Assembly: GCF_002563965.1 (NCBI RefSeq)
Contig: NZ_PDJF01000001.1
Span: forward strand, 930,001 to 994,000
Source of the DNA: Corynebacterium renale
GTDB taxonomy: Bacteria > Actinomycetota > Actinomycetes > Mycobacteriales > Mycobacteriaceae
DNA length: 64,000 nucleotides
Direction of reading: 5' to 3'
Within the stretch, counting starts at the first letter, position 1, and each line of letters begins with the position of its first letter. Positions 733 to 62,310 of this stretch are shown one piece after another. The notes under the pieces were generated by a model. That model worked only from the letters and a program-made list of their open reading frames with translations. It ran no database searches and was not told where the DNA came from. Made by a program: the position numbers and the translations under genes.

Positions 733-1758
733 ATGTCTTTCCTCAATGGTGTGCGCACCATGAGCCGCAAGGTTGTCGCGGCCATTACCGCAGTGGCAAC
801 CGCGGGTGTCCTCATGGTCGCCGGCGGCGGTGTCGCATCGGCGGGCCCGCGTGACTGGCTGCGCCCGGACGCGACCGGCCACTGCGAGTGGGACCAGGTT
901 GGTTTCTGGGTCCAGCGTTGCGACGTCTGGTCGGAGGCCACCGGCGCCAACATCACCGTGCAGATCCAGCCCGCACAGCGCGGCGGTAACGCGGGCCTCT
1001 ACCTGCTCGACGGTCTGCGCGCCACGAACCACTCCAGCGCATGGCTCGTTGATGTGAACGCAGCGGAAAAGTTCAAGGATCACAACATCACCCTGGTCAT
1101 GCCAGTCGGTGGCGCAGCATCCTTCTACGCTGACTGGGACTCCCCAGCGACGTACAACCTGCAGAACCCGGTGACCTACAAGTGGGAAACCTTCCTGACC
1201 AAGGAGCTGCCCGCCTACCTGGAGCAGCACTTCGGCGTTGCGCGCAACAATAACTCGATCGCCGGCCTGTCCATGGGTGGCACCGCCGCAATGAATTTGG
1301 CTGCGCAGCACCGCGACCAATTCCGCCAGGTCCTGTCCTACTCGGGCTACCTCACCATGACGCTGCCAGGTATGCAGACCGCACTGCGTCTTGCGCTTCT
1401 CGACGCCGGCGGCTTCAACGTCAACGCCATGTATGGATCGATCATCAACCCCCGTCGTTTCGAAAACGATCCTTTCCTGAACATGGAAGGTCTGCGCGGG
1501 GCTGACGTCTACGTCTCCGCCGCATCGGGCCTCCCGGCTCGTGAAGACGCGGGCATTCCTGCGAAGTACATCATTCCTGGCGCACTGCTGGAGCTCCTGT
1601 CGAACATCTCCACCAAGCTGTGGGCTGCCAAGGCCCGCGGTGCTGGTATCGGCGTGGAGACCAACTTCCCAGGTACCGGCGTCCACAACTGGAACCAGTT
1701 CGGTTACCAGCTGGACATCACCAAGGGCCGCATCCTTGACGTGATGAACGCCTGGTAA
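733..1758 (+). CDS. cmt2: Secreted corynomycolyltransferase (antigen 85 family)
   Basis: Transfers corynomycolate between trehalose monocorynomycolate molecules, or onto arabinogalactan, in the outer envelope. The protein has 341 residues. A Sec signal peptide (about residues 1-37) ends in VASA before GPRDWL. The alpha/beta-hydrolase nucleophile lies in GLSMGG (Ser180) and the catalytic His in GVHNW (His318). The Ag85-type block LYLLDGLRA is near residue 90. There is no LGFP extension, unlike the next gene. The start at 733 is chosen over an in-frame codon at 697 because AAAGGAG sits 5-10 bases upstream of it and the signal peptide then begins correctly. Equivalent position: fbpA in M. tuberculosis, cmt2 in C. 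glutamicum. A rho-independent terminator follows. Confidence 0.92.
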   Translation: MSFLNGVRTMSRKVVAAITAVATAGVLMVAGGGVASAGPRDWLRPDATGHCEWDQVGFWVQRCDVWSEATGANITVQIQPAQRGGNAGLYLLDGLRATNHSSAWLVDVNAAEKFKDHNITLVMPVGGAASFYADWDSPATYNLQNPVTYKWETFLTKELPAYLEQHFGVARNNNSIAGLSMGGTAAMNLAAQHRDQFRQVLSYSGYLTMTLPGMQTALRLALLDAGGFNVNAMYGSIINPRRFENDPFLNMEGLRGADVYVSAASGLPAREDAGIPAKYIIPGALLELLSNISTKLWAAKARGAGIGVETNFPGTGVHNWNQFGYQLDITKGRILDVMNAW

Positions 1759-1774
1759 TCCCAGCCTCGTACAG

Positions 1775-1801
1775 AAGCCACCCTTCGGGGTGGCTTTTTT
1801 C
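1775..1801 (+). terminator. Rho-independent terminator after the mycolyltransferase gene
   Basis: A perfect 9-bp stem, AAGCCACCC/GGGTGGCTT, with a TTCG tetraloop is followed by a T run. It starts 16 bases after the stop codon, so the two mycolyltransferase genes are separate transcription units. Confidence 0.9.
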
Positions 1802-4278: not shown

Positions 4279-4751
4279 TGGGCCGGAAGGGCGTCGCAAA
4301 GCTGAGTGTCCTTGCCTGTGCCGCACTGCTGACCGCCTGTGGTGGGGAAGCGACCGTGGATAACACGGACCCCACCGCGACGGTGACCCCGCTGACCCGC
4401 CCCAGCTCTGGGGCGACGGGGACAGCAACCGCGACGCAGCGCAGCGAAGCGGCACGCCCCACCCAGTCCGTGGGCCGGGACATGCCGGGCCGGGAAATCT
4501 CCGAGGCCCCCGCGTCCCCGTACTCCGAGCAGGAGCAGGCCTACCTGGACGGCCTGAAGGACAAGGGTGTGAAGGTCGACGGCGTCGAGGGCCCGCTGAT
4601 TGGGGCTGCCATCGACGTGTGCGGTGAAAATGGCGGAGGGGTCGTAACTAACGCGATTGCCGGCCAGCTCATTGAGCAAAATCGCACCGAACTCACAGCG
4701 GCGGATGCGGCGCAACTCATCACCGAGCAAGCGAAGAAAGCGTACTGTTAG
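4278..4751 (+). CDS. DUF732-type lipoprotein
   Basis: 157 residues with a GTG start overlapping the cop1 stop. The N-terminus is a lipoprotein signal with lipobox LLTAC (Cys about residue 21), followed by a Thr/Ser/Pro-rich linker. The C-terminal 75 residues read like a DUF732 helical domain: YLDGLKDKGVKVD, a Cys in DVCGENGGG and a last-residue Cys, which could form a disulfide. Function is unknown. Tight coupling to cop1 and to the next gene suggests a role at the mycolate-bearing surface. The family call comes from pattern recognition only. Confidence 0.75.
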   Translation: MGRKGVAKLSVLACAALLTACGGEATVDNTDPTATVTPLTRPSSGATGTATATQRSEAARPTQSVGRDMPGREISEAPASPYSEQEQAYLDGLKDKGVKVDGVEGPLIGAAIDVCGENGGGVVTNAIAGQLIEQNRTELTAADAAQLITEQAKKAYC

Positions 4752-4754: not shown

Positions 4755-5690
4755 ATGCGTAAATTCCTGACGATTCTGGCCGTGGTCATCGTTGTCATCG
4801 CCATCGGCGTGGGCGTTTCCCGCTGGCTCAGCGACGACACCCCCGACACCGGGAGCAGCTCCGACGATTCTGGTATCGCAGAACCCCCGGAGCAGCCCGA
4901 CTGGTGCCCCGCAGTGCAAGTCATTGCGGCGCCGGGCACGTGGGAGTCCTCCGCGGACGACGACCCCCTCAACCCGCAGGCGAACCCATACTCCTTCATG
5001 CTGTCTATCACCCAGCCCCTGCAGGAGCGGTACGCCGGCCAGAACGTCACGGTATGGACGCTGCCGTACACCGCCGAATTCAAAAACATCGACGGCGGGC
5101 TCGGGCAGATGAGCTACGACGACTCCCGCCAGGAAGGCGTGGAGAAAACCAACGCTGAACTGGCGTACGTCCACGGCCAGTGCCCGGCCACCAAATTCAT
5201 CTTGACCGGTTTCTCCCAGGGCGCGGTCCTGCTCGGCGACATCACCAGCGACATCGGCAACGGCCGCGGCGTGGTGCCCGCTGATGCCATCCTGGGCACG
5301 GCGCTTATTGCCGACGGCCGCCGCCTGCCCACCGAAGGCCAGCTGCCTGAAGGGCACGTGGAGCTGACCGGCATCGGTGCGGAGATCACCCTGCACCCGC
5401 TGAACGCCCTCATCCAGCCAATCGTGCCCGGCGCCACGATGCGCGGCGTCCGCGACGGCGGCTTCGGCAGCCTCGACGCCGCCACGTTCCAGATCTGCGC
5501 CGCCGACGACACCATCTGCGACGCCCCAGAAAACGTGAGCAGCGCCATCGAACGCGTGCGCTCCATGATCGACGCCAACGGCATCCACGCCCAATACGCC
5601 ACGAACCCCAACGTCATCGCAGGCACGACGGCTAATCAGTGGGTCGTCGACTGGGCTTCTGGGCTTATCGACGGCGCGGTGGCGCGCTAG
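4755..5690 (+). CDS. Rv3802c-like cutinase-family lipase/thioesterase
   Basis: 311 residues; one N-terminal membrane helix (about 5-25) and an extracytoplasmic alpha/beta-hydrolase domain. The nucleophile is Ser154 in GFSQG; Asp in CAADDTICD and His278 in GIHAQY complete a probable triad, and paired cysteines flank the Asp as in cutinases. Rv3802c, the M. tuberculosis counterpart in the same place between the mycolyltransferases and fadD32, is an essential phospholipase/thioesterase linked to mycolate synthesis. The gene starts 3 bases after the lipoprotein stop, so cop1, the lipoprotein and this gene form one operon. Confidence 0.85.
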   Translation: MRKFLTILAVVIVVIAIGVGVSRWLSDDTPDTGSSSDDSGIAEPPEQPDWCPAVQVIAAPGTWESSADDDPLNPQANPYSFMLSITQPLQERYAGQNVTVWTLPYTAEFKNIDGGLGQMSYDDSRQEGVEKTNAELAYVHGQCPATKFILTGFSQGAVLLGDITSDIGNGRGVVPADAILGTALIADGRRLPTEGQLPEGHVELTGIGAEITLHPLNALIQPIVPGATMRGVRDGGFGSLDAATFQICAADDTICDAPENVSSAIERVRSMIDANGIHAQYATNPNVIAGTTANQWVVDWASGLIDGAVAR

Positions 5691-5810: not shown

Positions 5811-7649
5811 ATGGATATTGCAGCAGCGCTGAAGCAGTTCTACAACGAAAAAGGTGAAATCCAACTCGCCCCACAGCTCACGCTGGCTGGCCTGGCCGAG
5901 TTGCTCTACCAGGCCGACTTCGCCCAGGGTGGCGGGCAGCGCCACGTCTTGCGCTTCTGGGACTTCTCCGAAGGGGAGGGCACCCCGCGCGATTTCACCC
6001 GCACCGAAGTGAACACGCGCATCAAGGCTGTGGCAGCGCGCCTGCAGCAGGTCGCCACGATTGGTGACCGCGCCGCGATCCTAGCCGGCAACTCGCCGGA
6101 GTACCTCTTCGCTTTCCTGGGCGCCCTGTACGCCGGCGTTGTCCCGGTTCCGTTGTATGACCCGAACGAGCCTGGCCATGCGGACCACCTCAAGGCCGTG
6201 TTCAACGATTCGGAGCCGAAGGTCGTGCTCACGAACTCCGCGTCGGCGGCGTCGGTGCGCGCCTACTTCGCGGATCTGCCGGGCCGCGAGCGTCCGCGCG
6301 TACTCTCCGTGGATTCGCTGCCAGATTCTTTGGCGGCGTCGTGGGTGAACCCGGCGATGACCCTGGCCGGCCAGCAGCTGGCCGCCACCGCGCAGACCCA
6401 GCCGGTGGATTCGACCGCGTTCCTGCAATACACCTCCGGTTCCACCCGCACCCCGGCGGGCGTGGCGCTGACCAACCGTTCCATCCTGACCAACGTCCTG
6501 CAGATCTTCCAGGGCGCCCGCCTGAAGATGCCGCTGCGCCTGGTGTCCTGGCTGCCACTGCACCACGACATGGGCATTATCCTGGCGGCGTTCGTCACGC
6601 TGCTCGGCGTGGAGCATGAACTGTTTACCCCGCGCGACTTCATCCAGCGCCCGTCGCGGTGGACCAACCTGATCGCCCGCCGCGGCGACGAGGACGTGGC
6701 CACCTACGCCGTCATCCCGAACTTTGCCCTCGAGTTGGCGGCCCGCTACGGCAAGCCGGAGGAGGGCCAGGACTTCTCGAACGTGGACGGTGTCATCGTC
6801 GGCTCAGAGCCGGTCACCCGCCCGGCGTTGGAAAACTTCCTGGAGATCTTCGGCGCCCACGGGCTGAAGCGTGAGGTCGTGCGCCCGTCGTACGGCTTGG
6901 CGGAGGCGTCGCTGCTGGTGACCACCCCGCAGACTGCGGAGCGCCCATTCTTCCGTTCCTTCGACCGCGCGGCCCTGGCTGAGGGGCGCGCCGTCGTCGT
7001 CGAGGATGGCGCGGACAATGGCGTGGTCTTCGTGTCCAACGGCCAGGTTGTCCCGAACCAGACGCTGGTCGTCGTGGACCCAGAGACCCGCGCCGAGGTC
7101 GAAGACGGCACCATCGGTGAGCTGTGGGCGCACGGCCAGAACATGGCCGCCGGCTACCTGAACCGCCCGGAGGAAACCGCCGCGACCTTCGCCAACACCC
7201 TGGCCTCCCGCCTGCCGGAGGGCTCCCACGCGGGCACCGCCCCGGACGAGGGGTGGATGGCCACAGGCGACTTGGGCACCATCGTCGACGGCCACACCTA
7301 CATCACCGGCCGCCTCAAGGACCTGATCGTTATTGCCGGCCGTAACCACTACCCGCAAGACATTGAGGTCACGGTGGGCCAGGCCACGGACCACGTGAAC
7401 CCTGTCGCGATTGCGGCTTTCTCGGTGGAAGGTGATGACGTCGAGAAGCTCATCATCTTGGCCGAGCGCGCTGATAACGCCGACCCCGCCGGCGACGATA
7501 CAGCCATTGAGACAATTCGCGGTGCCGTTAATGCTGCACACGGTGTAGCACCGGCGGACATCCGGATTCTGGGTGCTGGTGAGATTGCGCGTTCTTCCTC
7601 GGCGAAGATTGCGCGCCGGGTAGCTCGTAAGAATTACTTGGAACAGTAA
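5811..7649 (+). CDS. fadD32: Long-chain fatty-acyl-AMP ligase FadD32
   Basis: Activates the meromycolate-equivalent fatty acid as acyl-AMP and loads it on the N-terminal carrier domain of Pks13. 612 residues, the usual length for FAAL32. The adenylation signature YTSGST is near residue 207, SYGLAEASLLVTT near 360, TGDLG near 485 and GRLKDLIVIAGRNHYPQDIE just after it. AGGAG precedes the ATG by 6 bases. The 120-base gap upstream has a -10-like TACACT at 5739 with no good -35 and a GCCGG/CCGGC hairpin (5779-5792), so it may have its own promoter. Followed by pks13 and accD3, as in other Corynebacteriales. Confidence 0.96.
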   Translation: MDIAAALKQFYNEKGEIQLAPQLTLAGLAELLYQADFAQGGGQRHVLRFWDFSEGEGTPRDFTRTEVNTRIKAVAARLQQVATIGDRAAILAGNSPEYLFAFLGALYAGVVPVPLYDPNEPGHADHLKAVFNDSEPKVVLTNSASAASVRAYFADLPGRERPRVLSVDSLPDSLAASWVNPAMTLAGQQLAATAQTQPVDSTAFLQYTSGSTRTPAGVALTNRSILTNVLQIFQGARLKMPLRLVSWLPLHHDMGIILAAFVTLLGVEHELFTPRDFIQRPSRWTNLIARRGDEDVATYAVIPNFALELAARYGKPEEGQDFSNVDGVIVGSEPVTRPALENFLEIFGAHGLKREVVRPSYGLAEASLLVTTPQTAERPFFRSFDRAALAEGRAVVVEDGADNGVVFVSNGQVVPNQTLVVVDPETRAEVEDGTIGELWAHGQNMAAGYLNRPEETAATFANTLASRLPEGSHAGTAPDEGWMATGDLGTIVDGHTYITGRLKDLIVIAGRNHYPQDIEVTVGQATDHVNPVAIAAFSVEGDDVEKLIILAERADNADPAGDDTAIETIRGAVNAAHGVAPADIRILGAGEIARSSSAKIARRVARKNYLEQ

Positions 7650-7661
7650 CCATTGAAGAAA

Positions 7662-7715
7662 TCAGCCCACCGTCTTTGAGCACAGCCCCCGCGCTGGCTT
7701 AGACTGGTGGGCTGA
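7662..7715 (+). promoter_or_regulatory. Candidate pks13 promoter inside a 10-bp inverted repeat
   Basis: TTGAGC at 7676-7681 and TAGACT at 7700-7705 (18 bases apart) make a good corynebacterial promoter. It is flanked by perfect arms TCAGCCCACC (7662-7671) and GGTGGGCTGA (7706-7715), the second of which covers the expected start site. This could be a regulator site or a fadD32 3' hairpin. Confidence 0.5.
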
Positions 7716-7748
7716 ACTGTGCTTTATATATAAGGAGAGTGGTCGACG

Positions 7749-10700
7749 GTGGCCGAGTCGGGAAAGATGTCTGTGCCGGAGCTGCGGGAATGGATCCGCG
7801 CGTGGATTATTGACGTCACGGGTCTTCCCGAGGCCGAGGTCACGGACGATAAGCCAATGGAATCCTTCGGGCTGTCGTCCCGGGACGTCGTGATCCTGTC
7901 CGGCGAGTTGGAGAACCTGCTGGGCGTGCACCTGGACGCCACCATCGCCTACGAGTACCCCACGATCAAGGCGCTGGCTACCCGACTGATTGAAGGGGAG
8001 CCGGAGCGCACTCTCGCTTCTCGACGTCTGCCTGACCGCCTGCGGACCTCAGGCACAGACAACATCGCGGACCACGACATCGCCATCGTCGGCATGTCCA
8101 CTCGTTTCCCCGGTGCCGGGGACTTGGATGAGATGTGGGATCTTCTGGTCACCGGCCGCACCGAGGTGGGCGAGCCGCCGATTGGCCGCTGGTCGGAGTA
8201 CGCGTCCGACGAGGTCATGTCCGCCAAGATGGCTAACCAGAACTTGACCGGCGGCTACCTGCACGACATCGCCTCCTTCGATGCCGAATTCTTCGGCTTG
8301 TCCCCGGTTGAGGCCACGAATATGGACCCGCAGCAGCGCCTGGTGCTGGAGTTGGCGTGGGAAGCTCTCGAGGATGCCGGTGTTCCGGCCAATGAACTGC
8401 GCGGCGAGTCCGTGGGCGTGTTCATCGGTTCCTCGAACAATGACTACGGCATGCTCATCTCCGGCGACCCCGCCGAGGCCCACCCGTACGCGCTGACCGG
8501 TACGTCGTCGGCCGTGATCCCGAACCGTGTGTCCTACGTCTTCGACTTCCGCGGCCCGTCCGTGAACGTGGATACCGCGTGCTCCTCCTCGCTGGTGGCG
8601 GTCCACCAGGCGGTGCGCGCGCTTCGCGACGGCGACGCCGACGTCGCCCTGGCCGGCGGCGTCAACATCCTGGCCAGCCCCTTCGTGTCCACCGCCTTCG
8701 GGGAGCTCGGCGTGTTTTCCCCGACCGGTGCCATCCACGCGTTTTCCGATGACGCCGACGGCTTCGTCCGCTCCGACGGCGCCGGCCTCCTGGTGCTCAA
8801 ACGCGTGTCGGATGCCCGCGCCGCCGGCGATAACATCGTCGCCGTCATCAAGGGTTCGGCCGTGAACTCCGACGGCCACTCCAACGGCCTGACCGCCCCG
8901 AACCCCGACGCGCAGGTGGACGTCCTGCAGCGCGCATACCTGGACGCCGGCGTTGACCCGCTGGACGTGGATTACATCGAAGCCCACGGCACCGGCACCA
9001 TCCTGGGCGACCCCATCGAGGCCACCGCCCTCGGCGCCGTCCTGGGCCGCGGCCGGGAGAACGCGAAGCCAACCCTGCTGGGATCCGCGAAATCAAACTT
9101 TGGGCACTCCGAATCAGCCGCCGGCGCCGCCGGCCTGATCAAGGTTGCGTTGGCGATGCGCCACGCCACCATCCCGCCCTCCATCAACTACGCGGGCCCC
9201 AACCGCTACATAGACTTCGACGCCGAACACTTGGAAATCGTCGAGGACCCACGCGAGTGGCCCGAATACTCCGGCCGCAAGGTCGCTGGCGTCTCCGGTT
9301 TCGGTTTCGGCGGCACGAACGCGCACGTGGTCGTAGCCGAATACGTGGCCGAAGACTACGACATCCCCGTCAACGAGCAACCAGCGCAGCTGCCAGGGGA
9401 GACCGCCACACTCGCGGTCAGTGGTTTGCTGCCGTCGCGGCGTCGTAAAGCAGCTGCCATGGTGGCCGACTACCTCGAAGCCCACCCCGACACCGACCTC
9501 ATCGCCCTAGAGCGCACGCTGGCCGGGCGCAACCACGGGCGCTCGCGCGCGGTCGTGCAGGCAGCCACCCACGAAGACGCGCTCAAGCGCATGCGCCAAG
9601 TCGCCGACGGCGTGAAATCCGTGGGCATCTTCGCCGCCGATTCGCCCGCAGCTCAGGGCCCGGTCTTCGTGTACTCCGGCTTCGGCTCTCAGCACCGAAA
9701 GATGGCCAAGGACCTGATGGCGGACTCGCCGCTGTTCGCCGCCCGGATGCGCGAACTCGACGAGATCGTGGACTTCGAATCCGGCTGGTCCATGATCGAA
9801 CTCATCGAGGACGACTCCCAGACCTACAACACCGAAACCGCGCAGGTCACCATCACCGCGATCCAGATTGCGCTAACCGACGTCCTCGCGGCCGCCGGCG
9901 CCACACCCGCAGCCGTGACCGCCATGTCCATGGGCGAAATCGCCGCCGCCTACGCCGCCGGCGGTTTGAGCGCGCAGGATGCGATGCTCGTGGCCTGCCA
10001 CCGCGCCCGCCTCATGGGCGAAGGTGAACAATCCCTGTCCGAAGACCAGCAGGGCGCGATGGCCGTGGTGGAATGCGCCGACTTCGAGGCAGAGATCGCG
10101 GCCGTGCCGGAATACGAAGGCATCGAGCCCGCCGTGTACACGTCCGCTGCGATGCTCACGGTCGGTGGGCCACGCGGTCCCGTCGAGAAGCTCGTCGCCG
10201 ACCTCGAGGAAGCCGGCAAGTTCGCCCGCCTCCTCAACGTCAAGGGCGCCGGCCACACCTCCATGCTCGACCCGATCATGGGCGAACTCGCCGGCGAAAT
10301 CGCAGGTATCGAGGCCCGCCCGCTGCACACCCCGCTGTTTAGCTCCGTGGATCGGGGCCGCGTCTACGAGGCCGGCGAAACCGTCCACGACGCCGACTAC
10401 TTCCTGCGGTGTACCCGTCAGCAGGTGTACTTCGTGGACGCCATCGAAGCGTGCTTCGCCAACGGCTACATGACGTTCGTCGAGGTCTCCCCGCACACCA
10501 TCGCGCTGATGGGCATGATGCCCACCGCGTTTGCCGTCGGCAAGTCCGACGCCCAACTCCTGTACACCCTCAAGCGCAAGGAACCCGCCGCCGACTCGCT
10601 GCGCACCTTACTCGGCCAGCTGTATGCCCAAGGCCAGCCCATCGACCTGGGATTCATCCACGGCGCCGGCGCACACACCGACCTGCCGCACACCCCGTGG

Positions 10701-15264: not shown

Positions 15265-15333
15265 TTCACACCTCCAAAGAATTTTGTTCATCATAGACCA
15301 GCGGAAGTGTGAGAGCAACCACATGTTTAGTGC

Positions 15334-15371: not shown

Positions 15372-15407
15372 GGCTAGAGTTCAACAATCGACTACAGGAG
15401 GGAACGC

Positions 15408-15503: not shown

Positions 15504-15513
15504 GCCGACACCT

Positions 15514-15895: not shown

Positions 15896-15900
15896 GCGCC

Positions 15901-49705: not shown

Positions 49706-50395
49706 ATGGCTAGGGATTTGGTCTCACAGGGCGTGGAGACCATGTTGCGTGCGATTGCGGAGGGCCAATTCCAACCGGGCGTGCTCCCGCCAGAAGGTGA
49801 ACTCGTGGATTTTCTGGGCTGTTCGCGGGCCACGGTCCGGGAGGTGATCCGCACGCTCTCCGACCGGGGGATCGTGGTGGTCCAGCACGGGCGCGGCACG
49901 TATCTGCAACCGCAGGACCAGTGGATTGATATGCGGTCCCTGGTGGAGGTGGCGTTGCAGTCGCGCACGCCGAAGGATGTGTCGCGCAACCTCATCGAGA
50001 TTCGCCGCATGATTGAGGTCGGCTCCTGCGGCCATGCCGCCGCCCGCGCCACCGAGGAGAACTTGCAGGCCATGGAGGCACAACTAGCGCTTTACGACGA
50101 CGCTGCCGCCCGCAACGACGCCGCCGCCTGCGCCTCCGCGGACGTGGCGTTCCACCAGGAGATTTTTAAGGCCACCGGCAACCCATTCCTCTTGGCGATT
50201 GTGCAGCCGTTGGAGTCGGCGATGCGCCGCTCGCGGGAGTTGACGTCGTCGGTGCCGGAGGTGCGCGAGCGTGCGCAGCAGCACCATCGGGAGATTTTCG
50301 CCGCGTTGCGCGCGGGGGATGAGGAGGGCGCGAAGAATGCGATGCGCTCTCACATGGCGCAGACCCGCGGGGATATTGAGGGTTACGTTCAGTAA
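49706..50395 (+). CDS. FadR-subfamily GntR transcriptional regulator
   Basis: 229 residues. N-terminal winged helix (about 5-70) with EGELVDFLGCSRATVREVIRTLSDRGIVVVQHGRGTYL; C-terminal FCD ligand domain (about 90-220) with the metal-binding pattern IRRMIEVG, ADVAFHQEIF and HHREIFAAL. AAGGAGG precedes the ATG. It stands directly upstream of the sugar-acid kinase, dehydrogenase and permease genes on the same strand and is very likely their local regulator, sensing a sugar acid. Confidence 0.88.
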   Translation: MARDLVSQGVETMLRAIAEGQFQPGVLPPEGELVDFLGCSRATVREVIRTLSDRGIVVVQHGRGTYLQPQDQWIDMRSLVEVALQSRTPKDVSRNLIEIRRMIEVGSCGHAAARATEENLQAMEAQLALYDDAAARNDAAACASADVAFHQEIFKATGNPFLLAIVQPLESAMRRSRELTSSVPEVRERAQQHHREIFAALRAGDEEGAKNAMRSHMAQTRGDIEGYVQ

Positions 50396-50484: not shown

Positions 50485-51903
50485 ATGAGAACCCTCGAAG
50501 AACTCACCGCCGGCTACCCCGACCCCGTCGACGTAGCCGCCGCCGACGTCCGCGCCGCCGCGGGCCGCGACGCGGAACCCATCTTTATCGTGCTCGACGA
50601 CGACCCCACCGGCACCCAATCCGTGGCAGACCTTCCCGTCCTGACGCGCTGGCAGCCCGAGGACCTGGCCTGGGCCTTTGAGCAGGGCAAGCCCGCGATC
50701 TACGTGATGACGAACTCGCGTTCCCTCGCGCCGGAAGACGCCGAGCAGATTAATAAGGACGTCGCTGCAGCCGCCTACGCCGCCGCTGAGCAGCGCGGAA
50801 TCCGCGTGGCATTCGTGTCGCGTTCCGATTCGACTTTGCGCGGCCACTTCCCGCTCGAGCCCTATACCTTGGCCGACATGGCCGCCCAGCATGGCCAGGA
50901 CACCGACGGCATCGTCATCGTGCCCGCGTTCGGCGACGCCGGCCGCATCACCGTCGGCGGCGTGCATTACGCCGGCGGCGCGGGCGGGTACACCCCCGTT
51001 GGTGAAACGGAATTCGCCCAGGATGCAACCTTTGGGTTCGCGTCCAGCAACCTCGCGGAGTGGGTGGAAGAAAAGACCGGCGGCGACGTCCCCGCGGACC
51101 GCGTCCTGCACCTCGACCTGGCGACCGTGCGCGCCGGCGCGGATGCTATCGCCGCAGCCCTGGCCGGGGTGGCTGACCGCCAGCCGGTCACCGTGGACAT
51201 CGTCACCGAAGAGGACTTGCGCCTACTCTCCCTGGGGCTGATCAAGGCTGAGGAGTCAGGCAAGACGTTCATCTACCGCGTCGGCCCGCCTTTCGTGCGG
51301 GCCCGCATCGGCCAGGAGATCCCGGAACCGCTGACCGCCCAGGCCGTCGCCGAGTCCCGCACCACGGAGCCGACCGTCCCCGGCGGGCTCATTGTGGTCG
51401 GCTCGCACGTGCCCACCACGACCCGCCAGCTCGGCGCGCTGCTCGACGCGGAGCTTGCGGAGGTCGTCGAACTTGACGTCGCCCGCGCGCTCGACGAGGG
51501 CGATTCCTACCTGGACAGCCTGGCGAAAACCGTCCAGGAGAAGCTGGCCGGCGGCAACGTCGTGGTGCACACCTCCCGCACGCTGATCACGGGGGCTGAC
51601 AAGCAGGAGTCGTTGGCTATCGCGCGGCGGGTGTCGCAGGCGGTGGTGGACGTCGTTAATGCCACTGCACACGCGCTGACCCCGCGGTTCGTGATCGCCA
51701 AGGGTGGCATCACGAGTTCGGACGTCGCGTCGAAGGGCCTGGAGATGGGCCATGCCACCGTGATCGGGCCGATGCAGCCGGGGATCATCTCGCTGTGGCG
51801 GCTTGACGACGGCCCCGCCGCCGGCGTCCCATACATCGTTTTCGCAGGCAACGTGGGCAATGACAAGTCCCTCGTTGAGGTCACCGCAACACTATCGAAG
51901 TAA
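50485..51903 (+). CDS. Four-carbon acid sugar kinase (DUF1537)
   Basis: 472 residues. N-terminal substrate domain with IFIVLDDDPTGTQSVADLPVL and the Ser/Arg motif SRSDSTLRGHFPLE; C-terminal nucleotide-binding domain with FVIAKGGITSSDVASKGLEM. These are the signatures of DUF1537 kinases, which phosphorylate D-threonate, L-threonate or D-erythronate at the 4 position. AAGGAG lies 5 bases before ATG 50485, better than the GTG at 50479. Substrate stereochemistry cannot be read from the sequence. Confidence 0.87.
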   Translation: MRTLEELTAGYPDPVDVAAADVRAAAGRDAEPIFIVLDDDPTGTQSVADLPVLTRWQPEDLAWAFEQGKPAIYVMTNSRSLAPEDAEQINKDVAAAAYAAAEQRGIRVAFVSRSDSTLRGHFPLEPYTLADMAAQHGQDTDGIVIVPAFGDAGRITVGGVHYAGGAGGYTPVGETEFAQDATFGFASSNLAEWVEEKTGGDVPADRVLHLDLATVRAGADAIAAALAGVADRQPVTVDIVTEEDLRLLSLGLIKAEESGKTFIYRVGPPFVRARIGQEIPEPLTAQAVAESRTTEPTVPGGLIVVGSHVPTTTRQLGALLDAELAEVVELDVARALDEGDSYLDSLAKTVQEKLAGGNVVVHTSRTLITGADKQESLAIARRVSQAVVDVVNATAHALTPRFVIAKGGITSSDVASKGLEMGHATVIGPMQPGIISLWRLDDGPAAGVPYIVFAGNVGNDKSLVEVTATLSK

Positions 51904-51915: not shown

Positions 51916-52806
51916 ATGAGCACAATTACCGTCGTCGGGCTGGGCGCAATGGGCCTTCCCATGGCCACCAACCTGGCTGAAAAGTTCACCGTCCGCGGTG
52001 TGGACATCGCCGAAGCCCGCCTCGAGCTGGGCAAAGAAGCCGGCTTGGAAACCTACACCGACTCCCGCGAGGCCGCCAGCGGCGCGGACTTCGTGCTGTT
52101 GGCCGTGCGTTCGCAGGCCCAGCTGCAGGAAGCCCTCTTCGGCGCCAACGGTATCGCGGACGTCATGAGCGAAGGCTCGTGCGTTATCGTGACCTCCACC
52201 GTGGGCATCGACGCCATCGCCTCCGTCGTGCCGGGCCTACGTAATCGTGGCATTTTGCTTGTCGACGCCCCCGTCTCCGGCGGGCCGGCGCGCGCCGGCA
52301 AGGGCGACCTGCTGGTGACCGTCGGCGCGGACGACACCGCCTGGGACACCGCCCACGACGTGCTGGACACCATGGCGTCGACCCTGGTGCGCGTCGGCGA
52401 CGAGGCCGGCAAGGGCCAGGCCATGAAGACTGTCAACCAGCTGCTCTGCGGCATTCACATCGCCGCCGCCGGCGAGGCGCTCGCGCTGGCCAACCGCCTG
52501 GGCCTCGACGAGGCTGCCGCCCTCGACGCGTTGATGAGCGGCGCTGCGTCGTCCTTCATGCTCGGCGACCGTGGCCCGCGCATGCTGCAGGCGTACGGCG
52601 AGGAGCCCGTGGAGGTGAAGAGCCGCCTGGACATCTTTGTTAAGGACATGGGCATCGTCACCGACGCTGCCCGCAAGGCCGGCATCGGCGTACCGCTGGC
52701 TGCCGCCGCGGAGCAGGTCTACCTGAACGGCTTGACCCGCCGCATGGGCGCGCAAGACGATTCGTCTGTTATCCGCCTGGTCTCCCCAGAAAGGCTCGAC
52801 GGATGA
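51916..52806 (+). CDS. Beta-hydroxyacid dehydrogenase, threonate dehydrogenase type
   Basis: 296 residues. NAD(P) site TVVGLGAMGLPMATNLA; substrate motif DAPVSGGPARAGKGDLLV; catalytic Lys in GKGQAMKTVNQLL; C-terminal helical domain with KDMGIVTDAA. In sugar-acid pathways this enzyme oxidises threonate or erythronate at C2 or C3 before phosphorylation by the neighbouring DUF1537 kinase. It starts 12 bases after the kinase with AAAGGAC as ribosome site, and overlaps the permease by 4 bases. Confidence 0.87.
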   Translation: MSTITVVGLGAMGLPMATNLAEKFTVRGVDIAEARLELGKEAGLETYTDSREAASGADFVLLAVRSQAQLQEALFGANGIADVMSEGSCVIVTSTVGIDAIASVVPGLRNRGILLVDAPVSGGPARAGKGDLLVTVGADDTAWDTAHDVLDTMASTLVRVGDEAGKGQAMKTVNQLLCGIHIAAAGEALALANRLGLDEAAALDALMSGAASSFMLGDRGPRMLQAYGEEPVEVKSRLDIFVKDMGIVTDAARKAGIGVPLAAAAEQVYLNGLTRRMGAQDDSSVIRLVSPERLDG

Positions 52807-55209: not shown

Positions 55210-57132
55210 TTACCGAATCCCAAGAAACTGCAGCGCGCCCGCAATGGCGGCGATGAGCCCGCCAAGGCCCAGCGCGGAGAACACTGCGATCAGGATGTTG
55301 GAAACATTCCAGGTCTTGTCTTTACTGCTTTGCGACGGCTCCTTCTTCACATCCGGGGTCTTAGCCTTGTCGTCCGCCTTCGGCTGCTCGGGCTTCGGCG
55401 CAACGTAGTCGTTGTTGATGATGTGTCGCAGCAAGAACGCGCCGCCGCGCCAGGAGCCCCCGTTTTCGTCTTGGGTTGCCACGTAGTAGCCGCGTTCAGC
55501 TGGCAGGAGCGACTGGTGTAGCGGCTTGTTGGTGCGCTGGCCGTTGGGGACCTGCGCCAGGGTGGTGGCGTTGAGGTCGGAGTCGATGGCCACGAGGTTG
55601 CCGTTCACAGAATCCAGGGCGTAGATGGTGCCGTCCTTGATGGTCACGTCTGCGACGGTGTTGACCCCGGCGACTGGCTTGGCCTCGGTCTTTGGTGTCA
55701 GCGTGCCGTTGTCGTAGGTCAGGACCTGGAAGATGGAGCCGGCTCCGTCCAAGTTGTTGTAGCGGACGACGGTAGTGCCGTCGGTACGCAGGGCGCTGTA
55801 GTAGCGGTTGCTTTCCTTTTCTGCGGTGCCAGGGACCACGGCCGCGGCTTCCGCCGGGGTAGTCGCGTCTGGGTTGAGGCGCAACAGGGTGCCTTTGACA
55901 GTGGAGTCGATGCCTTCGGCGTAGACGTCGGCGTTGGTATTGAACAGGAAGGTGCCGTCGCTGACTGGGGCTAATTCCTGGATGTCATCGTTGCGGAAGG
56001 AGGCGGTGTAGGCGTTGGAGTACTGCTCCTGAAGCGGGAAGTCGAAGAGTTCTGCGGTGGTCGGCAGTGCCTGGTCACGCAGCTGGGTGCCTTCCAACGT
56101 GGAGAGGTAGGCGGACTTGTCGTCCTTCTGGGAGAGGGCGGAGAGTTTGCCGGTCTTCGGGTGGACTGCCAGTGCCTGGACGATGCCGGGTGCTTGCCCG
56201 ACGGTAACTGGCTCGCCGAGCGCTGCGGCCGCAGGCACGACGTCGATGGACTTGATCTCCGGGGTGTTGCGTTCGGCGAAGTAGAGCACGCCGGTCGCCG
56301 GGTTGAAGGCGGAGACGTTATCGCGGGTGATCGGCGCTTCCTTCAAGGCGATCTGCTTCGCGGTGTGGTCCAGCAAGGCCACGCCCTGTTCCGCGACGAC
56401 TGCCACGATGTAATCCCCGTACGCGAAAGTGCGGGTGACGTCAGCGTATGTACCTGGCGACGTCCACGCCTCCCCGACGCTGAGTCCCGTCTTCCTCGCA
56501 GCCCCTGGGCCTTCGCCGGTGTAGTGGAAGGATACGGGCGCTAGCGCCTCGCCGACCTCGTAGAATTCGGAGAACATCTTCCAGCCCTCTTGGGTGAGGG
56601 TGGAGGAGATGTTTTCCCACTTCACGGTGCCGTTGGTATTGGTGTAGTTCGCGGCGTCGGTGTTGAGCGTAGCCACCTTGACGGGCTTACCCGGTGCGAA
56701 GACGCCACCCTTGGGGTACTGCTTGGAGGAGACGGTGCCTTCGAGGTAGGAGCCGTCGTCATCGATGACAACTTTCGGGTCCTTGAATGTGAGGTCCAAA
56801 GCGCAGTTTGGGTCGGTTGCCGGTTCCTTGGTGGGGCAGTATTGCTTGTACACGACACGTCCGCTGAATTGGGCTTCGACGCGGTTCTCGGCGGCGTCGT
56901 AGGTGTGGGATTTCAGCGGGAAAGAGAATGTCCCGGTGACGGGTTGGGTGGCGCCTTCGTCGATGATGGTCGGGCCGCCGGTGTAGCTGTTGAAGCTGGG
57001 GCGTAGTCCCCATTCGAGGGCGCCGGTGGTGGCGTCGGCGTGCGCGATGGTGGTGGGGAGCAGCGCGAATGTGGTTACTACGGCAAGTGCTGCGCGTCGC
57101 ATGTGGCGACGTGGCTGGGCAAGAGCGGGCAC
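55210..57132 (-). CDS. Secreted HtaA-domain protein with propeller-like region (haem uptake type)
   Basis: 640 residues from GTG 57132, with AAAGGA 6 bases upstream. Signal peptide ends in IAHA near residue 32. Residues about 35-200 read like an HtaA (haem-binding CR) domain: TGALEWGLRPSFNSYTGG, a Cys pair in QYCPTKEPATDPNCALDL, and the closing pattern LTQEGWKMFSEFYEVGEALAPVSF; the Tyr in SFNSY is the usual haem ligand position. Residues about 215-570 are beta-propeller-like repeats. A Lys/Pro linker, helix and tail FLGIR end it. The DtxR-like box upstream supports iron repression. HtaA proteins bind haem or haemoglobin at the cell surface. Confidence 0.82.
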   Translation of the reverse strand: MPALAQPRRHMRRAALAVVTTFALLPTTIAHADATTGALEWGLRPSFNSYTGGPTIIDEGATQPVTGTFSFPLKSHTYDAAENRVEAQFSGRVVYKQYCPTKEPATDPNCALDLTFKDPKVVIDDDGSYLEGTVSSKQYPKGGVFAPGKPVKVATLNTDAANYTNTNGTVKWENISSTLTQEGWKMFSEFYEVGEALAPVSFHYTGEGPGAARKTGLSVGEAWTSPGTYADVTRTFAYGDYIVAVVAEQGVALLDHTAKQIALKEAPITRDNVSAFNPATGVLYFAERNTPEIKSIDVVPAAAALGEPVTVGQAPGIVQALAVHPKTGKLSALSQKDDKSAYLSTLEGTQLRDQALPTTAELFDFPLQEQYSNAYTASFRNDDIQELAPVSDGTFLFNTNADVYAEGIDSTVKGTLLRLNPDATTPAEAAAVVPGTAEKESNRYYSALRTDGTTVVRYNNLDGAGSIFQVLTYDNGTLTPKTEAKPVAGVNTVADVTIKDGTIYALDSVNGNLVAIDSDLNATTLAQVPNGQRTNKPLHQSLLPAERGYYVATQDENGGSWRGGAFLLRHIINNDYVAPKPEQPKADDKAKTPDVKKEPSQSSKDKTWNVSNILIAVFSALGLGGLIAAIAGALQFLGIR

Positions 57133-57491: not shown

Positions 57492-59158
57492 ATGGCAGTA
57501 ACCACCCGGCGCCGCCCGCGGGCCAAGAAGTCCGACGGCCAGTGGAAAGTAGATGGGCGCACCCCCCTTAACCACGACGAAGAGGTCAAGCAGGAGCAGG
57601 AAGTCCTCCAGGTTTATGACCGGATCGTCAACATTTATTCCAAGCAGGGTTTTGCATCGATCCCGGCGGATGACCTCGCGCCACGTTTTAAGTGGCTGGG
57701 AATTTATACCCAACGCCGCCAAGATTTAGGCACCGAATTCACTGGCCAGGACAATGCGGTTCTGCAGGACCAGTACTTCATGATGCGCGTGCGCTTCGAC
57801 GGCGGCCGCGTCACCCCGGAGCAGCTGCGGGTGGTGGGCGAAATTTCCCGCGAGTATGCCCGCTCGACCGCGGACTTTACGGACCGGCAGAACATTCAGC
57901 TGCACTGGCTGCGCATCGAAGACATCCCGGCAATCTTCGACAAGCTAGACGCCGTGGGCCTTTCCCCGCTGTTGGGCTGCGGCGATGTGCCCCGCGTTAT
58001 CTTGGGGTCCCCGGTCGCGGGAGTGGCCGCCGACGAAATCATCGACGCCACCCCGCCATCGAAGCGATCAAAGAAAAGTATCTCTTCGACCCGCAGTTCC
58101 ATAACCTGCCCCGCAAATTTAAGTCCGCCATCTCCGGCAACGCCCGCCAGGACGTCACCCACGAAATTCAGGACTTGGCCTTCATCGGATCCGTTCACCC
58201 GGAGCACGGCCCGGGCTTCGAGTGCTTCGTCGGTGGCGGCCTGTCCACCAATCCGATGCTCGGCCATAGCCTGGGCGCCTGGATCCCACTTGAGGAGGTC
58301 CCGGAGGTGTGGGCCGGCGTGCTCAGCATCTTCCGCGATTACGGTTTCCGCCGCCTGCGCAACCGGGCACGCCTGAAGTTCCTGGTCAAGGAGTGGGGAA
58401 TCGAAAAATTCCGGAGCGTGCTGGAGGAAGAATACCTGGGGCGTCCGCTTCTCGACGGCCCCCACAACGAAACCAACACCGGGTACCGCGACCACATCGG
58501 GGTACATCGCCAGCGCAACGGCAAGTTTTATGTGGGCGTGAAGCCAACCGTGGGGCATTCCACGGGCGAGCAGTTGGTGGCGATCGCGGATATTGCGCGT
58601 CAGTTTGGCGTCGAGAAGCTGCGGACCACGCCTTACAAGGAACTGCTTTTCCTCGACGTCGACCACGGCAACGTTGCTGCGCTGCAGAAAGCCCTCGACG
58701 AGGTGGGCCTGTACTCGCGGCCGAGTGAATGGCGGCGCAACATCCTGTCCTGCACGGGCATGGAGTTCTGCAAGCTGGCGCACACGACCACGAAGTCACG
58801 GGCGATTGAGCTGGTCGACATCCTCGAGGACCGCCTCGGCGAGGTTGACGTGCCGATCTTAATCGCGCTGAACGGTTGCCCGAACTCGTGCGCCCGCACC
58901 CAGGTCGCCGACATCGGCTTCAAGGGGCAGACGCTTACCGACGCCGACGGCACCCGACGCGAAGGCTTCCAAGTACACCTAGGCGGTTCCATGAGCCTGA
59001 ATCCCAACTTTGGCCGCAAACTCAAAGGCCACAAGGTGTTCGCCGATGACGTCGCCGACTACGTCACCCGCGTGGTCACCCACTTCACGCAGCAGCGCGA
59101 AGAGGGCGAAACGTTCCAACACTGGGTACAACGCGCCGCCGAGGAGGACCTGCAATGA
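57492..59158 (+). pseudogene. cysI: Sulfite reductase (ferredoxin) CysI, frameshifted
   Basis: Reduces sulfite to sulfide with ferredoxin. Two frames together give a full-length protein of about 555 residues: the first runs from 57492 to about 58054 (ending ADEIIDATP) and the second takes over at 58055 (AIEAIKEKYLFD) to TGA at 59158. One base is missing in or after the C run at 58051-58054; a fifth C would restore TPAIEAIK. The second part holds the siroheme/4Fe-4S ligands CTGMEFC and CPNSC. Without correction, translation stops at 58376 and lacks the cofactor site. It could be a real mutation or a sequencing error in a C run. First gene of the cys operon. Confidence 0.88.
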
Positions 59159-59394: not shown

Positions 59395-60158
59395 TCAACT
59401 TTCTCAATACCGCCACCTACCAGGACCCGGACGTGTCCCCCGCGCAGGAACCGCCACGGCCCCTTGACACTGCCACCGCCGCCCGCAACAAGCAGCTGGT
59501 AGAGCAGTGGGCTGACACGCTTTTCGACGCCCCCGCCGAAGACATCCTCACCTGGGCGCACGAACACGCGCCCGGACCGCTGGCCATCACCTTGTCCATG
59601 GAGAACACCGTCCTGGCACACCTGGGCCACGAATACCTCCCGGACGCGAAATTCCTGTTCCTGGACACCGGATATCACTTCCAGGAAACGCTCGACGTCG
59701 CCGACGCCGTGGACACGCGGTACCCCGGGCGCCTCCTGACCATCCGGCCGGTGCTCAGCCGCGCCGAACAAGACGCCACCTATGGACCCAGCCTCTACCG
59801 CAGCAACCCCACGGCCTGTTGCCGAATGCGCAAAGTCGAACCCTTAGGCCAGGCACTCGCCGAATTCGCCGGGTGGGTGACCGGAGTCCGCAGGGACGAC
59901 GGGCCAACCAGGGCGAAGGTGCCGTCGATAAGCATCGACGCGGCCGGGCGCCTCAAGATCTCCCCCCTGGTGACCTGGACGCTGGAAGACACCGACGCCT
60001 ACATCGCCGAACACGGCCTCATCGAACACTCCCTGACCAGCCAAGGGTATCCCTCCATCGGGTGCGCCACCTGCACCGCACCCGTAGCCCCCGGGGCCGA
60101 CCCGCGCTCCGGACGCTGGGCAGGACAAGCCAAAACAGAATGCGGACTGCACACATGA
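59391..60158 (+). CDS. cysH: Adenylylsulfate reductase CysH (4Fe-4S type)
   Basis: Reduces APS to sulfite and AMP. 255 residues from GTG 59391, overlapping the cysX stop by 4 bases. Both iron-sulfur Cys pairs are present (TACCRMRKVEPL and GCATCTAPV), which marks the APS-reductase class rather than the PAPS class; the catalytic Cys is in the last residues, ECGLHT. Substrate-binding ITLSMENTVLAHL is near residue 65. No CysC (APS kinase) is seen in the operon, consistent with direct APS reduction. Confidence 0.92.
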   Translation: MINFLNTATYQDPDVSPAQEPPRPLDTATAARNKQLVEQWADTLFDAPAEDILTWAHEHAPGPLAITLSMENTVLAHLGHEYLPDAKFLFLDTGYHFQETLDVADAVDTRYPGRLLTIRPVLSRAEQDATYGPSLYRSNPTACCRMRKVEPLGQALAEFAGWVTGVRRDDGPTRAKVPSISIDAAGRLKISPLVTWTLEDTDAYIAEHGLIEHSLTSQGYPSIGCATCTAPVAPGADPRSGRWAGQAKTECGLHT

Positions 60159-61054
60159 ACTCACTATCCCCACACCTACGCGACCTAGAAAACGAATCCC
60201 TCCACATCCTGCGCGAAGTCGCCGGCCAATGCGACACCGTCGGCCTGCTCTTCTCCGGGGGCAAAGACTCCGTCGTGGTCTACGAACTCGCCCGCCGCGC
60301 CTTCGCACCCGCCGCGGTGCCGTTTGAGCTCATCCACGTGGACACCGGCCACAACTTCCCGGAAGTGATCGACTTCCGCGACCAGCTCGCAGCCCGCGAC
60401 GGCGTGCGCCTCCACGTGGCCAAAGTACAAGACTGGATCGACTCCGGCGCACTCCACGAACGCCCCGACGGCACACGCAACCCCCTGCAAACCGTGCCGC
60501 TGGTAGAAACCATCGCCAACCGCGGCTACGACGCCGTCCTCGGCGGAGCCCGCCGCGACGAAGACCGCGCCCGCGCCAAAGAACGCATCTTCTCCGTCCG
60601 CGACTCCTTCGGCGGCTGGGACCCCCGCCGCCAACGACCCGAACTGTGGGACCTCTACAACGCAGGCCACCTACCCGGCGAAAACATCCGCGTCTTCCCC
60701 ATCTCCAACTGGACGGAACTGGACATTTGGGAGTACATCGCAGCCCGGGGCATCGAACTCCCGCCCATCTACTACGCCCACCAACGCGAAGTGTTCAACC
60801 GCGACGGCATGTGGCTTGCGCCCGGGCAGTGGGGCGGGCCGCGCGCCGGGGAGGAACTGGTGACCAAGACAGTGCGGTACCGCACCGTCGGCGACATGTC
60901 GTGCACCGGGGCTGTGGAATCCACGGCCGCCACCACAGCTGACGTGATCGCCGAGATCGCGACCTCCACCATCACCGAACGCGGCGCCACCCGGGCCGAT
61001 GACCGGCTCAGCGAATCCGCAATGGAAGACCGCAAGAAGGAAGGCTACTTCTGA
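60155..61054 (+). CDS. cysD: Sulfate adenylyltransferase subunit 2 (CysD)
   Basis: Adenylates sulfate to APS. 299 residues starting at ATG 60155, overlapping cysH by 4 bases. The PP-loop LLFSGGKDSVV is near residue 31, and the C-terminal TVRYRTVGDMSCTGAVES matches CysD enzymes. Works as a heterodimer with CysN. Confidence 0.95.
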   Translation: MNSLSPHLRDLENESLHILREVAGQCDTVGLLFSGGKDSVVVYELARRAFAPAAVPFELIHVDTGHNFPEVIDFRDQLAARDGVRLHVAKVQDWIDSGALHERPDGTRNPLQTVPLVETIANRGYDAVLGGARRDEDRARAKERIFSVRDSFGGWDPRRQRPELWDLYNAGHLPGENIRVFPISNWTELDIWEYIAARGIELPPIYYAHQREVFNRDGMWLAPGQWGGPRAGEELVTKTVRYRTVGDMSCTGAVESTAATTADVIAEIATSTITERGATRADDRLSESAMEDRKKEGYF

Positions 61055-62310
61055 TGACTACCCCTCTGACCCCTGGCGGCGATGCAATCGCCGCCGCCGC
61101 CGCGTTGGCCGGCCGCGAAACCTTAAGGCTGTGCACCGCCGGGTCTGTCGACGACGGCAAGTCCACGTTCGTCGGCAGGCTGCTCCACGACACGAAGTCC
61201 GTGCTGGCGGACACGTTAGAGCAGGTCACGGCGGCTTCCGCGCGGCGTGGTTTCCAGGGCCTGGATTTGTCGCTGCTCGTCGACGGGCTGCGCGCCGAAC
61301 GCGAGCAGGGCATCACGATCGATGTGGCGTACCGCTATTTCTCGACCCCGAAGCGTTCCTTTATTTTGGCCGATACCCCAGGTCACGTGCAGTATACGCG
61401 CAACACGGTTACCGGTATTTCCACCTCCCAGGTGGTGGTCTTGCTCGTTGATGCCCGCCACGGCGTGGTGGAGCAGACGCGCCGCCACCTCACGGTCGCG
61501 GGCCTGTTGGGCGTGAAGACTGTGGTGCTGGCGGTGAACAAGATTGACCTGGTTGATTACTCCAGGGAAGTGTTCTCCCAGATCGAGGCCGAGTTCACGG
61601 CGGCTGCGCGCGAGGCCGGCATCGCCGAACCGCACGCGGTGCCGATTTCAGCCCTCCACGGTGATAATGTGGCCCACCCGAGTTCGGCGATGGACTGGTA
61701 CACCGGCCCCACGGTCCTGGAATTGTTGGAAACCATCGAGGTGAACCGCGGCCGCGCCGACGACCTGGATTTCCGGTTCCCCATCCAGTACGTCATCCGC
61801 GAACACGCCCTGGACTACCGCGGCTACGCGGGCCGGGTGAAAGCTGGGGCGATTGAGGTGGGCGATACCGTGGACACCCCGCACGGCACCACCACGGTCA
61901 CCGCAATCGACGGCACTGATGGCCCACAGCAGGAGGCCCGCACCGGTGATTCTGTGGTGCTGCGTCTCGCGGACGACATCGACCTCACCCGCGGCGACCT
62001 GCTCGCCGTGCGCCGCCCCGCCGATGCGACGCGCCTGCGTGCGCACTTCGTGGGTCTGACGCAGCAGGCGATCCCGCCGAACGCGATCGTCAAGGTCCGC
62101 TACGGAACCGCGCTGGTCAAGGCCCGTGTGCAGCCCACTCAGCCGATCGAACTCAACGACATCACCGAGGCCACCGTCCAGCTCGCCCAGCCACTGCCGG
62201 TGGAAAAGTACCAGGCCCGGGGAGCGGTGGGCTCACTGTTGCTTATCGACGCCTCCTCCGGCAACACGCTTGCCGCCGGCCTGGTCACCATCGCGGAGGT
62301 GCAGGAATGA
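61054..62310 (+). CDS. cysN: Sulfate adenylyltransferase subunit 1, GTPase (CysN)
   Basis: 418 residues, EF-Tu-like GTPase that drives APS formation. G1 GSVDDGKSTFVGRLL, G3 DTPGHVQYTRN and G4 NKIDL are clear. No CysC kinase domain is fused. Its start overlaps the cysD stop (TGATG). Confidence 0.95.
   Translation: MTTPLTPGGDAIAAAAALAGRETLRLCTAGSVDDGKSTFVGRLLHDTKSVLADTLEQVTAASARRGFQGLDLSLLVDGLRAEREQGITIDVAYRYFSTPKRSFILADTPGHVQYTRNTVTGISTSQVVVLLVDARHGVVEQTRRHLTVAGLLGVKTVVLAVNKIDLVDYSREVFSQIEAEFTAAAREAGIAEPHAVPISALHGDNVAHPSSAMDWYTGPTVLELLETIEVNRGRADDLDFRFPIQYVIREHALDYRGYAGRVKAGAIEVGDTVDTPHGTTTVTAIDGTDGPQQEARTGDSVVLRLADDIDLTRGDLLAVRRPADATRLRAHFVGLTQQAIPPNAIVKVRYGTALVKARVQPTQPIELNDITEATVQLAQPLPVEKYQARGAVGSLLLIDASSGNTLAAGLVTIAEVQE

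Follow-up and report, generated by a model that had tools for sequence, protein, structure and literature searches.

The stretch of DNA analysed here, referred to as the window, comprises 64,000 nucleotides (bases 930,001-994,000) of the 2.35 Mb single-contig genome of Corynebacterium renale, a member of a genus with a mycolate envelope. Positions 5811-19250 of the window represent a mycolate locus encoding FadD32, Pks13, a carboxyltransferase, and MmpL3; the FadD32_Coryne and Pks13 matches score above curated cut-offs, and MmpL3 is the best sequence match among solved structures for a further window gene, a gene set that marks the host as a Corynebacterium. Scattered across this locus and the remainder of the window is a short word, GCTTNTCGACG, which, together with its broader scaffold form GCTTNNCGACG, is the subject of this study and is discussed here as a putative DNA uptake sequence (DUS) of the genus.

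GCTTNTCGACG is present in the window in 35 exact copies (18 on the plus and 17 on the minus strand), which span positions 1395 to 62984, compared to a mean of 0.17 and a maximum of 2 copies in 100 dinucleotide-shuffled versions of the window. The first-pass annotation of this stretch had reported 30 copies (15 per strand) ending at 62251, well under one being expected by chance, and had suggested a possible genome-wide signal; the over-representation and the chance expectation stand, the count is corrected to 35, and the signal is indeed genome-wide, with 820 copies (428 forward, 392 reverse) versus 15 (6 and 9) for the reversed word, a density far above that of this control. Of all 10- and 11-mers that occur 12 times or more in the window, the two commonest spellings of GCTTNTCGACG are the most over-represented relative to an order-4 Markov model (29- to 122-fold). 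In full, the word reads GCTTNNCGACG plus a C at +12, position 6 being free as well, and the scaffold GCTTNNCGACG occurs 54 times in the window (30 plus, 24 minus). All 16 central dinucleotides of GCTTNNCGACG are in excess (1 to 66 copies versus 0.3 to 1.6 expected; AT and CT most of all) and single changes elsewhere in the scaffold remain within about twofold of the Markov expectation, except at the third base, where a 3- to 5-fold excess was found; judging from these single-change counts, recognition of GCTTNNCGACG looks sharp.

Reading frames of the copies were assigned with genes called by our own simple gene caller. The sense frame CTT-NTC-GAC accounts for 21 of the 35 window copies of GCTTNTCGACG; of the others, 10 are antisense, three are in other sense frames, and one is intergenic. 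In sense frame 2, the spelling GCTTCTCGACG is located at 1395-1405, 12652-12662, 41100-41110, and 58447-58457 (plus strand) and at 14865-14875 and 37776-37786 (minus strand); GCTTATCGACG at 5663-5673, 20884-20894, 47526-47536, and 62241-62251 (plus) and at 20630-20640, 31654-31664, 32544-32554, and 36312-36322 (minus); GCTTTTCGACG at 59519-59529 (plus) and at 17999-18009, 24687-24697, 27387-27397, and 34020-34030 (minus); and GCTTGTCGACG at 52257-52267 and 62974-62984 (both plus). Antisense copies are represented by GCTTCTCGACG at 24696-24706 and 31975-31985 (plus) and at 7439-7449, 10181-10191, and 58609-58619 (minus) as well as by GCTTATCGACG at 26624-26634, 32460-32470, and 36751-36761 (plus) and at 40911-40921 and 59923-59933 (minus). 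GCTTCTCGACG is also found in sense frame 0 at 8016-8026 (plus) and in sense frame 1 at 39517-39527 (plus), and GCTTATCGACG in sense frame 1 at 49108-49118 (minus). With regard to sites that enter the scaffold count only, those in sense frame 2 are GCTTCGCGACG at 8621-8631, GCTTCCCGACG at 10775-10785, GCTTACCGACG at 28924-28934 and 58933-58943, GCTTGCCGACG at 29723-29733 and 42416-42426, GCTTTACGACG at 50089-50099, and GCTTGACGACG at 51801-51811 (all plus) as well as GCTTCACGACG at 33486-33496 (minus). Antisense scaffold forms are GCTTTGCGACG at 16875-16885 and 55327-55337 (plus) and at 4292-4302 and 11567-11577 (minus), GCTTCGCGACG at 27588-27598 (plus), GCTTTACGACG at 9441-9451, GCTTCACGACG at 28936-28946, and GCTTAACGACG at 62446-62456 (all minus); a further GCTTTACGACG at 45661-45671 (minus) is intergenic.

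The gaps between copies are close to random rather than regular (coefficient of variation 0.88). In a 464 kb sample, consisting of the window and twenty 20-kb stretches of the C. renale genome, nine close pairs (starts less than 60 bp apart) were found; all are inverted and seven are inside genes. One of the two pairs not inside genes is at 19264-19299 of the window, where an intergenic GCTTTACGACG (19264-19274, plus) forms the left arm and an intergenic GCTTCTCGACG (19289-19299, minus) the right arm. The GCTTTTCGACG at 24687-24697 and the GCTTCTCGACG at 24696-24706 overlap as an inverted pair, and the GCTTACCGACG at 28924-28934 and the GCTTCACGACG at 28936-28946 form another.

The word is kept as DNA and not as peptide, as the first-pass annotation had argued. 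The 464 kb sample contains 167 copies, of which 93 use the sense frame CTT-NTC-GAC and a further 6 and 6 the other sense frames; 30 and 7 copies occupy two antisense frames, 23 are intergenic, and two are at gene edges. While the 93 copies in the Leu-x-Asp frame could be taken to suggest that the word is a by-product of protein sequence and codon use (i.e., of Leu-x-Asp encoded by favoured codons), permutation of synonymous codons within genes yielded only 9.1 expected coding copies (maximum 15 in 100 runs) and a pooled codon null that keeps the next base yielded 7.6 (maximum 15 in 100 runs), versus 143 observed; the possibility that a codon-aware null would by itself give about 30 copies thus fails. 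Copies also exceed the null in sense frames 0 and 1 and in antisense frames 1 and 2; for both of these sense frames and for antisense frame 1, the codon nulls predict 0.0 to 0.3 copies. The C at +12 is found in 21 of the 23 intergenic copies and in 59 of the 74 copies outside the main frame. Only fourth among the six Leu codons overall, CTT is used more often than any other in Leu-[ILFV]-Asp (120 of 261). In the window, the earlier statement that at least nine copies are outside the main frame was right in kind, the actual number being 14, and the examples given were borne out: the copy at 19289 is between genes, that at 8016 occupies sense frame 0, and those at 39517 and 49108 occupy sense frame 1. 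Taken with the Asp and Ala codon switches at the dialect base (see below), the codon nulls and the spread over frames refute the by-product explanation, to which we assign a negligible probability.

Strand use is balanced within stretches (18/17 in the window; sum of chi-squares 9.0 over 21 stretches), so that nothing points to a polarity along the replichores, as judged without a mapped origin, and the earlier argument from even strand balance against an FtsK-guiding sequence holds. Local strand counts in the window and the 20 further stretches revealed neither a strong polarity toward dif of the type of FtsK-orienting polar sequences (KOPS) nor a Chi-type orientation bias along the replichore, and by direct reading GCTTNNCGAYG is not self-complementary, i.e., it is not a palindrome such as the highly iterated palindrome HIP1. 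The Corynebacterium word resembles Chi, KOPS, and HIP1 in being a frequent, genome-wide short word, but has neither the replichore orientation of the first two nor the palindromic structure of HIP1.

To describe the distribution of the word, we define the genus as the 242-genome group to which the C. renale genome belongs. Exact copies of GCTTATCGACG range from 0 to 782 per genome across these 242 genomes, compared to 0 to about 6 for the reversed control. The genomes fall into two dialects that differ at the tenth base of the word, with 173 carrying mainly the C form (GCTTNNCGACG), 18 mainly the T form (GCTTNNCGATG), and 51 neither; the word is thus genus-wide, with about a fifth of the genomes lacking it. 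The C class required at least 110 copies and 2.5 times the control and the T class at least 140 copies and 5 times the control. Assignment of borderline genomes is arbitrary, and eight C-class genomes hold fewer than 300 copies; T counts were entered for classing for 77 genomes. The highest counts were 1,964 copies of GCTTNNCGACG versus 64 reversed (G218) and 1,337 copies of GCTTNNCGATG. T counts of C-class genomes range from 12 to 165 (134 in C. tuberculostearicum, G005), and the C form does not exceed 1.7 times the control in T-dialect genomes, except for G062, which holds both forms and joins 17 others to make up the 18. Both dialects are in excess in G062 (1337 T, 352 C), G073, and G087, which are candidates for a dialect switch in progress. 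In the rest of the order, the pooled scaffold did not exceed about 2.1 times the control in 149 sampled genomes, and GCTTNTCGACG did not exceed about 1.8 times the control in 16 non-genus genomes.

Words in named species were counted at 60 pks13 loci (57 from Corynebacterium), each covering up to approx. 25 kb. C words numbered 22 in C. minutissimum (17 in a second record), 19 in C. glaucum, 18 in C. pilosum, 17 in C. aurimucosum, 15 in C. bouchesdurhonense, 11 in C. silvaticum, and 10 and 13 in C. tuberculostearicum; T words were found in C. macginleyi (5 T, 0 C) and in strains ACRPS (9 T, 0 C) and J010B-136 (9 T, 2 C). Five C. jeikeium-group loci and those of C. phocae, C. spheniscorum, and C. 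mastitidis had 0 to 2 words in all, and G137, possibly C. mastitidis, showed a weak genome-wide C signal (195 versus 20 in the control). Absence of the word is scattered and not confined to one clade: in a 61-row Pks13 tree, nine changes are needed to account for the 17 rows labelled motif-less (three of them other genera). When two 20-kb stretches from each of 20 motif-poor genomes were searched by k-mers for further dialects, clear words were apparent at first sight in three, namely GCTTTGCGACG, GCTTGCCGATGCC, and CTTG[AT]CGATGCC; the scaffold GCTTNNCGAYG recurred in tad-region samples of further genomes, and larger samples together with a scaffold count added dialect cases. A possible further dialect, GGGCTCGACG, was observed in C. 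uropygiale (G247, L102; its reverse CGTCGAGCCC occurs 6 times versus 0.3 expected in 20 kb), which also has a weak genome-wide C count (116 versus 42). In G128 (L025-L026, L069-L074, L092), the commonest word core was GGCATCGGCA (66 versus 1.1 in 180 kb), which occurs with or without the GCTT end; this sample also contains a repeat resembling clustered regularly interspaced short palindromic repeats (CRISPR), with words such as GCGGGGATGA in 36 to 41 copies. Separately, G014 (L005-L006) contains a cluster of the DnaA-box-like GTTATCCACA (9 versus 0.1 expected in the 40 kb sampled), which is perhaps a replication origin.

Comparisons between closely related genomes of opposite dialect showed that conserved sites switch at the dialect base. 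The pks13 regions of the C. tuberculostearicum complex (eight loci, C) and of C. macginleyi and ACRPS (T) are 76-77% identical and share seven sites that differ at this base, one of which has C in some complex members and T in others; the codon change is between GAC and GAT (Asp) at five sense sites and between GCG and GCA (Ala) at two antisense sites. Between L146 and L114, counting sites at which the other four bases are kept, the dialect base remained C at 0 of 7 motif sites versus 9 of 21 other sites. In a 47.8 kb alignment of C. tuberculostearicum G005 with the T-dialect genome G006 (79.7% identity), 18 aligned C sites of G005 correspond in G006 to 13 T words, no C words, and five that are neither (four more were unaligned), and 25 aligned T sites of G006 correspond in G005 to 13 C words, two T words, and 10 that are neither (three unaligned). 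As background, 58 non-motif CGACG sites were taken at which the other four bases are conserved; of these, 36 retained C and 19 had T instead, a significant difference from the 13 conserved motif sites taken as a group (Fisher P = 2.5e-5 for C kept and 6e-6 for T). At several of these sites, the free centre bases vary within an otherwise unchanged word. In a 46-row Pks13 tree, all 12 T rows are within one 17-row clade (Shimodaira-Hasegawa-like approximate likelihood-ratio support 100); its other members are C. minutissimum, assigned to C by its locus, and four C-dialect rows from the C. tuberculostearicum complex. In this tree sample, either T would have arisen once and C returned, or T would have arisen more than once.

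The word is under-represented in mobile DNA, in a small sample of one prophage and two phages. A prophage-like stretch at approx. 465000-492750 of the C. renale genome (L301, L047), with an integrase at 491531-492751, a KilAC antirepressor, and an IrrE-like gene, contains three scaffold words versus 17.2 expected (P = 3.5e-5). No scaffold words were found in 44,000 bases of phage phi673 or in 22,163 bases of phage BFK20.

Genes for a plausible DNA import machinery are nearly universal in the genus. ComEC was found in 241 of the 242 genomes, a ComEA-type helix-hairpin-helix match in all 242 (231 over the family cut-off), and TadA in 236 (232 over the cut-off). TadA was also found in all 24 named genomes searched, motif-less ones among them; comEA and comEC adjoin in the C. 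renale genome. Presence of ComEC, ComEA, or TadA was therefore rejected as the cause of the motif-less state. Gene content of the Tad locus was likewise not supported as a difference, as G047, G133, G143, G167, G225, and G247 keep tad genes; these six were then taken as motif-less, although G247 was later scored as weak C, and TadE was not called there. A divergent, low-scoring TadA (E 1e-109 to 1e-125) is found in 30 genomes, all 30 of which are without the word versus 20 of 206 others. This split uses a post hoc threshold and no correction for shared descent, with fragmentary low hits in G020, G053, and G110 counted among the others and six match-less genomes left out; the association may reflect descent or a real loss of function. 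With regard to ComEA, the sequence of the first hairpin is G-x-G-x-V-T-A in all 14 T genomes and in four of the 44 C genomes compared. The valine was rejected as a dialect determinant, as the tree shows it in the C-dialect C. tuberculostearicum complex too; it marks a clade and is explained by descent. Interrupted or split competence genes were observed in G153 (comEC) and G046 (the comEA-type match), and comEC is in two matches in G053, G001, and G246; G046 and G153 (102 versus 45 in the latter) were classed as having neither form, and G053, G001, and G246 still have the C word.

Preference for short words in DNA uptake has been described for the Neisseriaceae and Pasteurellaceae (PMC1939737, as far as its available text goes). 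In the available part of Frye et al. (2013; PMC3630211), the DUS of Neisseriaceae comprises eight dialects that are distributed along the phylogeny and share a core, with some relatives lacking any. The Corynebacterium word resembles this system in being short, in very high copy number, and in having dialects that track the phylogeny, an invariant core with changed positions, and relatives without it; it differs in that its sequence is unrelated, that only two clear dialect classes were found, and that the host is an actinobacterium with Tad/Flp-type pilus genes instead of type IV pili with ComP. The Pasteurellaceae uptake signal sequence (USS) AAGTGCGGT, with about 1300 copies in Haemophilus influenzae in the portion of PMC5217627 available, is similar in copy number per genome and also forms inverted pairs, but is unrelated in sequence and machinery; the same portion describes H. 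influenzae USS pairs as often forming terminators, unlike the nine close Corynebacterium pairs, seven of which are inside genes. The motif-pair screen in that source gives CRISPR pairs for C. aurimucosum, C. jeikeium, and C. urealyticum. Natural transformation with Tad/Flp pili and ComEA/ComEC is reported for the actinobacterium Micrococcus luteus, which has TadA, TadE/TadF, Flp, ComEA, and ComEC in common with Corynebacterium; no uptake word for M. luteus is mentioned in the available parts of these two sources (PMC6370729, PMC6667448). Literature searches identified, by title or abstract, no paper on a DUS in Corynebacterium, none describing uptake sequences in Actinobacteria among the matches listed, no title on Corynebacterium genomes among the matches listed for the letters of the word, and no paper combining Corynebacterium, DNA uptake sequence, and over-representation, most subscription journals being outside the search; this silence is weak evidence of novelty.

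A word that is kept as DNA, numerous, non-polar, confined to one genus among those sampled, scarce in the one prophage analysed, and subject to converting dialects matches the DUS pattern of the Neisseriaceae, and GCTTNNCGACG followed by NC is thus probably a DUS of Corynebacterium, serving as a self-recognition watermark with dialects. Among the explanations offered by the first-pass annotation, an uptake signal is the best supported, given the DNA-level conservation, the dialects, the lack of polarity, and the scarcity in this prophage; a recombination hot-spot and a nucleoid-protein site are weaker, and a methylase site fits poorly. We propose that a surface DNA-binding component of a Tad-pilus/ComEA/ComEC import machinery would prefer DNA with the word, that DNA of relatives would therefore be preferentially imported and recombined, and that each import event would tend to swap imperfect sites for perfect ones. 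Copies would thus build up on either strand throughout the chromosome, chiefly at places where Leu-x-Asp is acceptable in the protein. A changed receptor preference would convert the whole set and give rise to dialects with either C or T as the tenth base, and the word set would disappear from lineages that lose or retune the system. Approximately a thousand individually trivial sites could follow a change in preference because of this uptake drive.

Other functions for a frequent DNA word have to be considered against this background. A binding site for an abundant intracellular protein that organises or segregates DNA, at about one per 1.5 kb and structuring the chromosome, would account for a short bipartite word that is genome-wide, on both strands, kept at the DNA level, and conserved at orthologous places. 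Site-by-site selection for a structural protein would, however, explain dialect switching less well, as many hundreds of mostly genic sites would have to follow one protein, and both the 51 of 242 congeners that lack either form and the near-random gaps speak against such a role, which we consider unlikely. Slightly less likely again is a Chi-like role, in which the word would control a double-strand-break repair nuclease of the AdnAB, RecBCD, or AddAB type and promote recombination. Chi is present in several hundred copies per genome and its words differ between lineages, a frequency and variability similar to those found here, and absence from phage DNA would fit as well; Chi acts in one orientation, though, and tends to be enriched on the leading strand, at odds with the lack of local strand bias reported above, and we know of no clean dialect switch for Chi in which the rest of the word is fixed. 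A DNA methyltransferase site, or a repair-linked repeat comparable to cyanobacterial HIP1, would similarly be a very abundant word confined to one lineage, but the word is non-palindromic, with nine fixed bases and two free centre bases, and restriction sites tend toward avoidance and not amplification; we regard this possibility as very improbable.

A number of observations nevertheless weigh against uptake as the function of the word. ComEA, ComEC, and TadA occur in motif-less species too, so that the word cannot be predicted from these machinery genes, and a search for the receptor by comparison of ComEA and the Tad pilins across dialects found none, the pilins yielding nothing convincing. 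For the 51 of 242 genomes with neither form, only loss, primitive absence, or an unseen dialect can be offered. The first lockstep test, in the pks13 region (approx. 24 kb per locus), was only suggestive, the outcome becoming clear on the 47.8 kb alignment; the prophage test concerns one element with borders set by eye and one more site just outside; and phi673 and BFK20 represent one host group, the word density of the host itself not having been measured. Finally, no report of natural transformation or competence in Corynebacterium was found among the matches listed, by titles and abstracts.

With somewhat less assurance than for the DUS assignment itself, we favour a broader reading in which Corynebacterium would have sequence-specific, Tad-pilus-driven transformation guarded by a dialected uptake word, in which the switch from C to T in the ancestor of one clade and a subsequent reversion to C within the C. 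tuberculostearicum complex would be receptor changes that set mating barriers between sister species, and in which self-recognising uptake would have had an independent origin outside the Proteobacteria. If this is true, word-preferring uptake evolved again in a large actinobacterial genus with a different pilus, many Corynebacterium species are predicted to be naturally competent, and tagged DNA would represent a direct handle for laboratory genetics; in addition, a dialect pair in mid-conversion makes the spread and change of uptake words testable by genome comparison.

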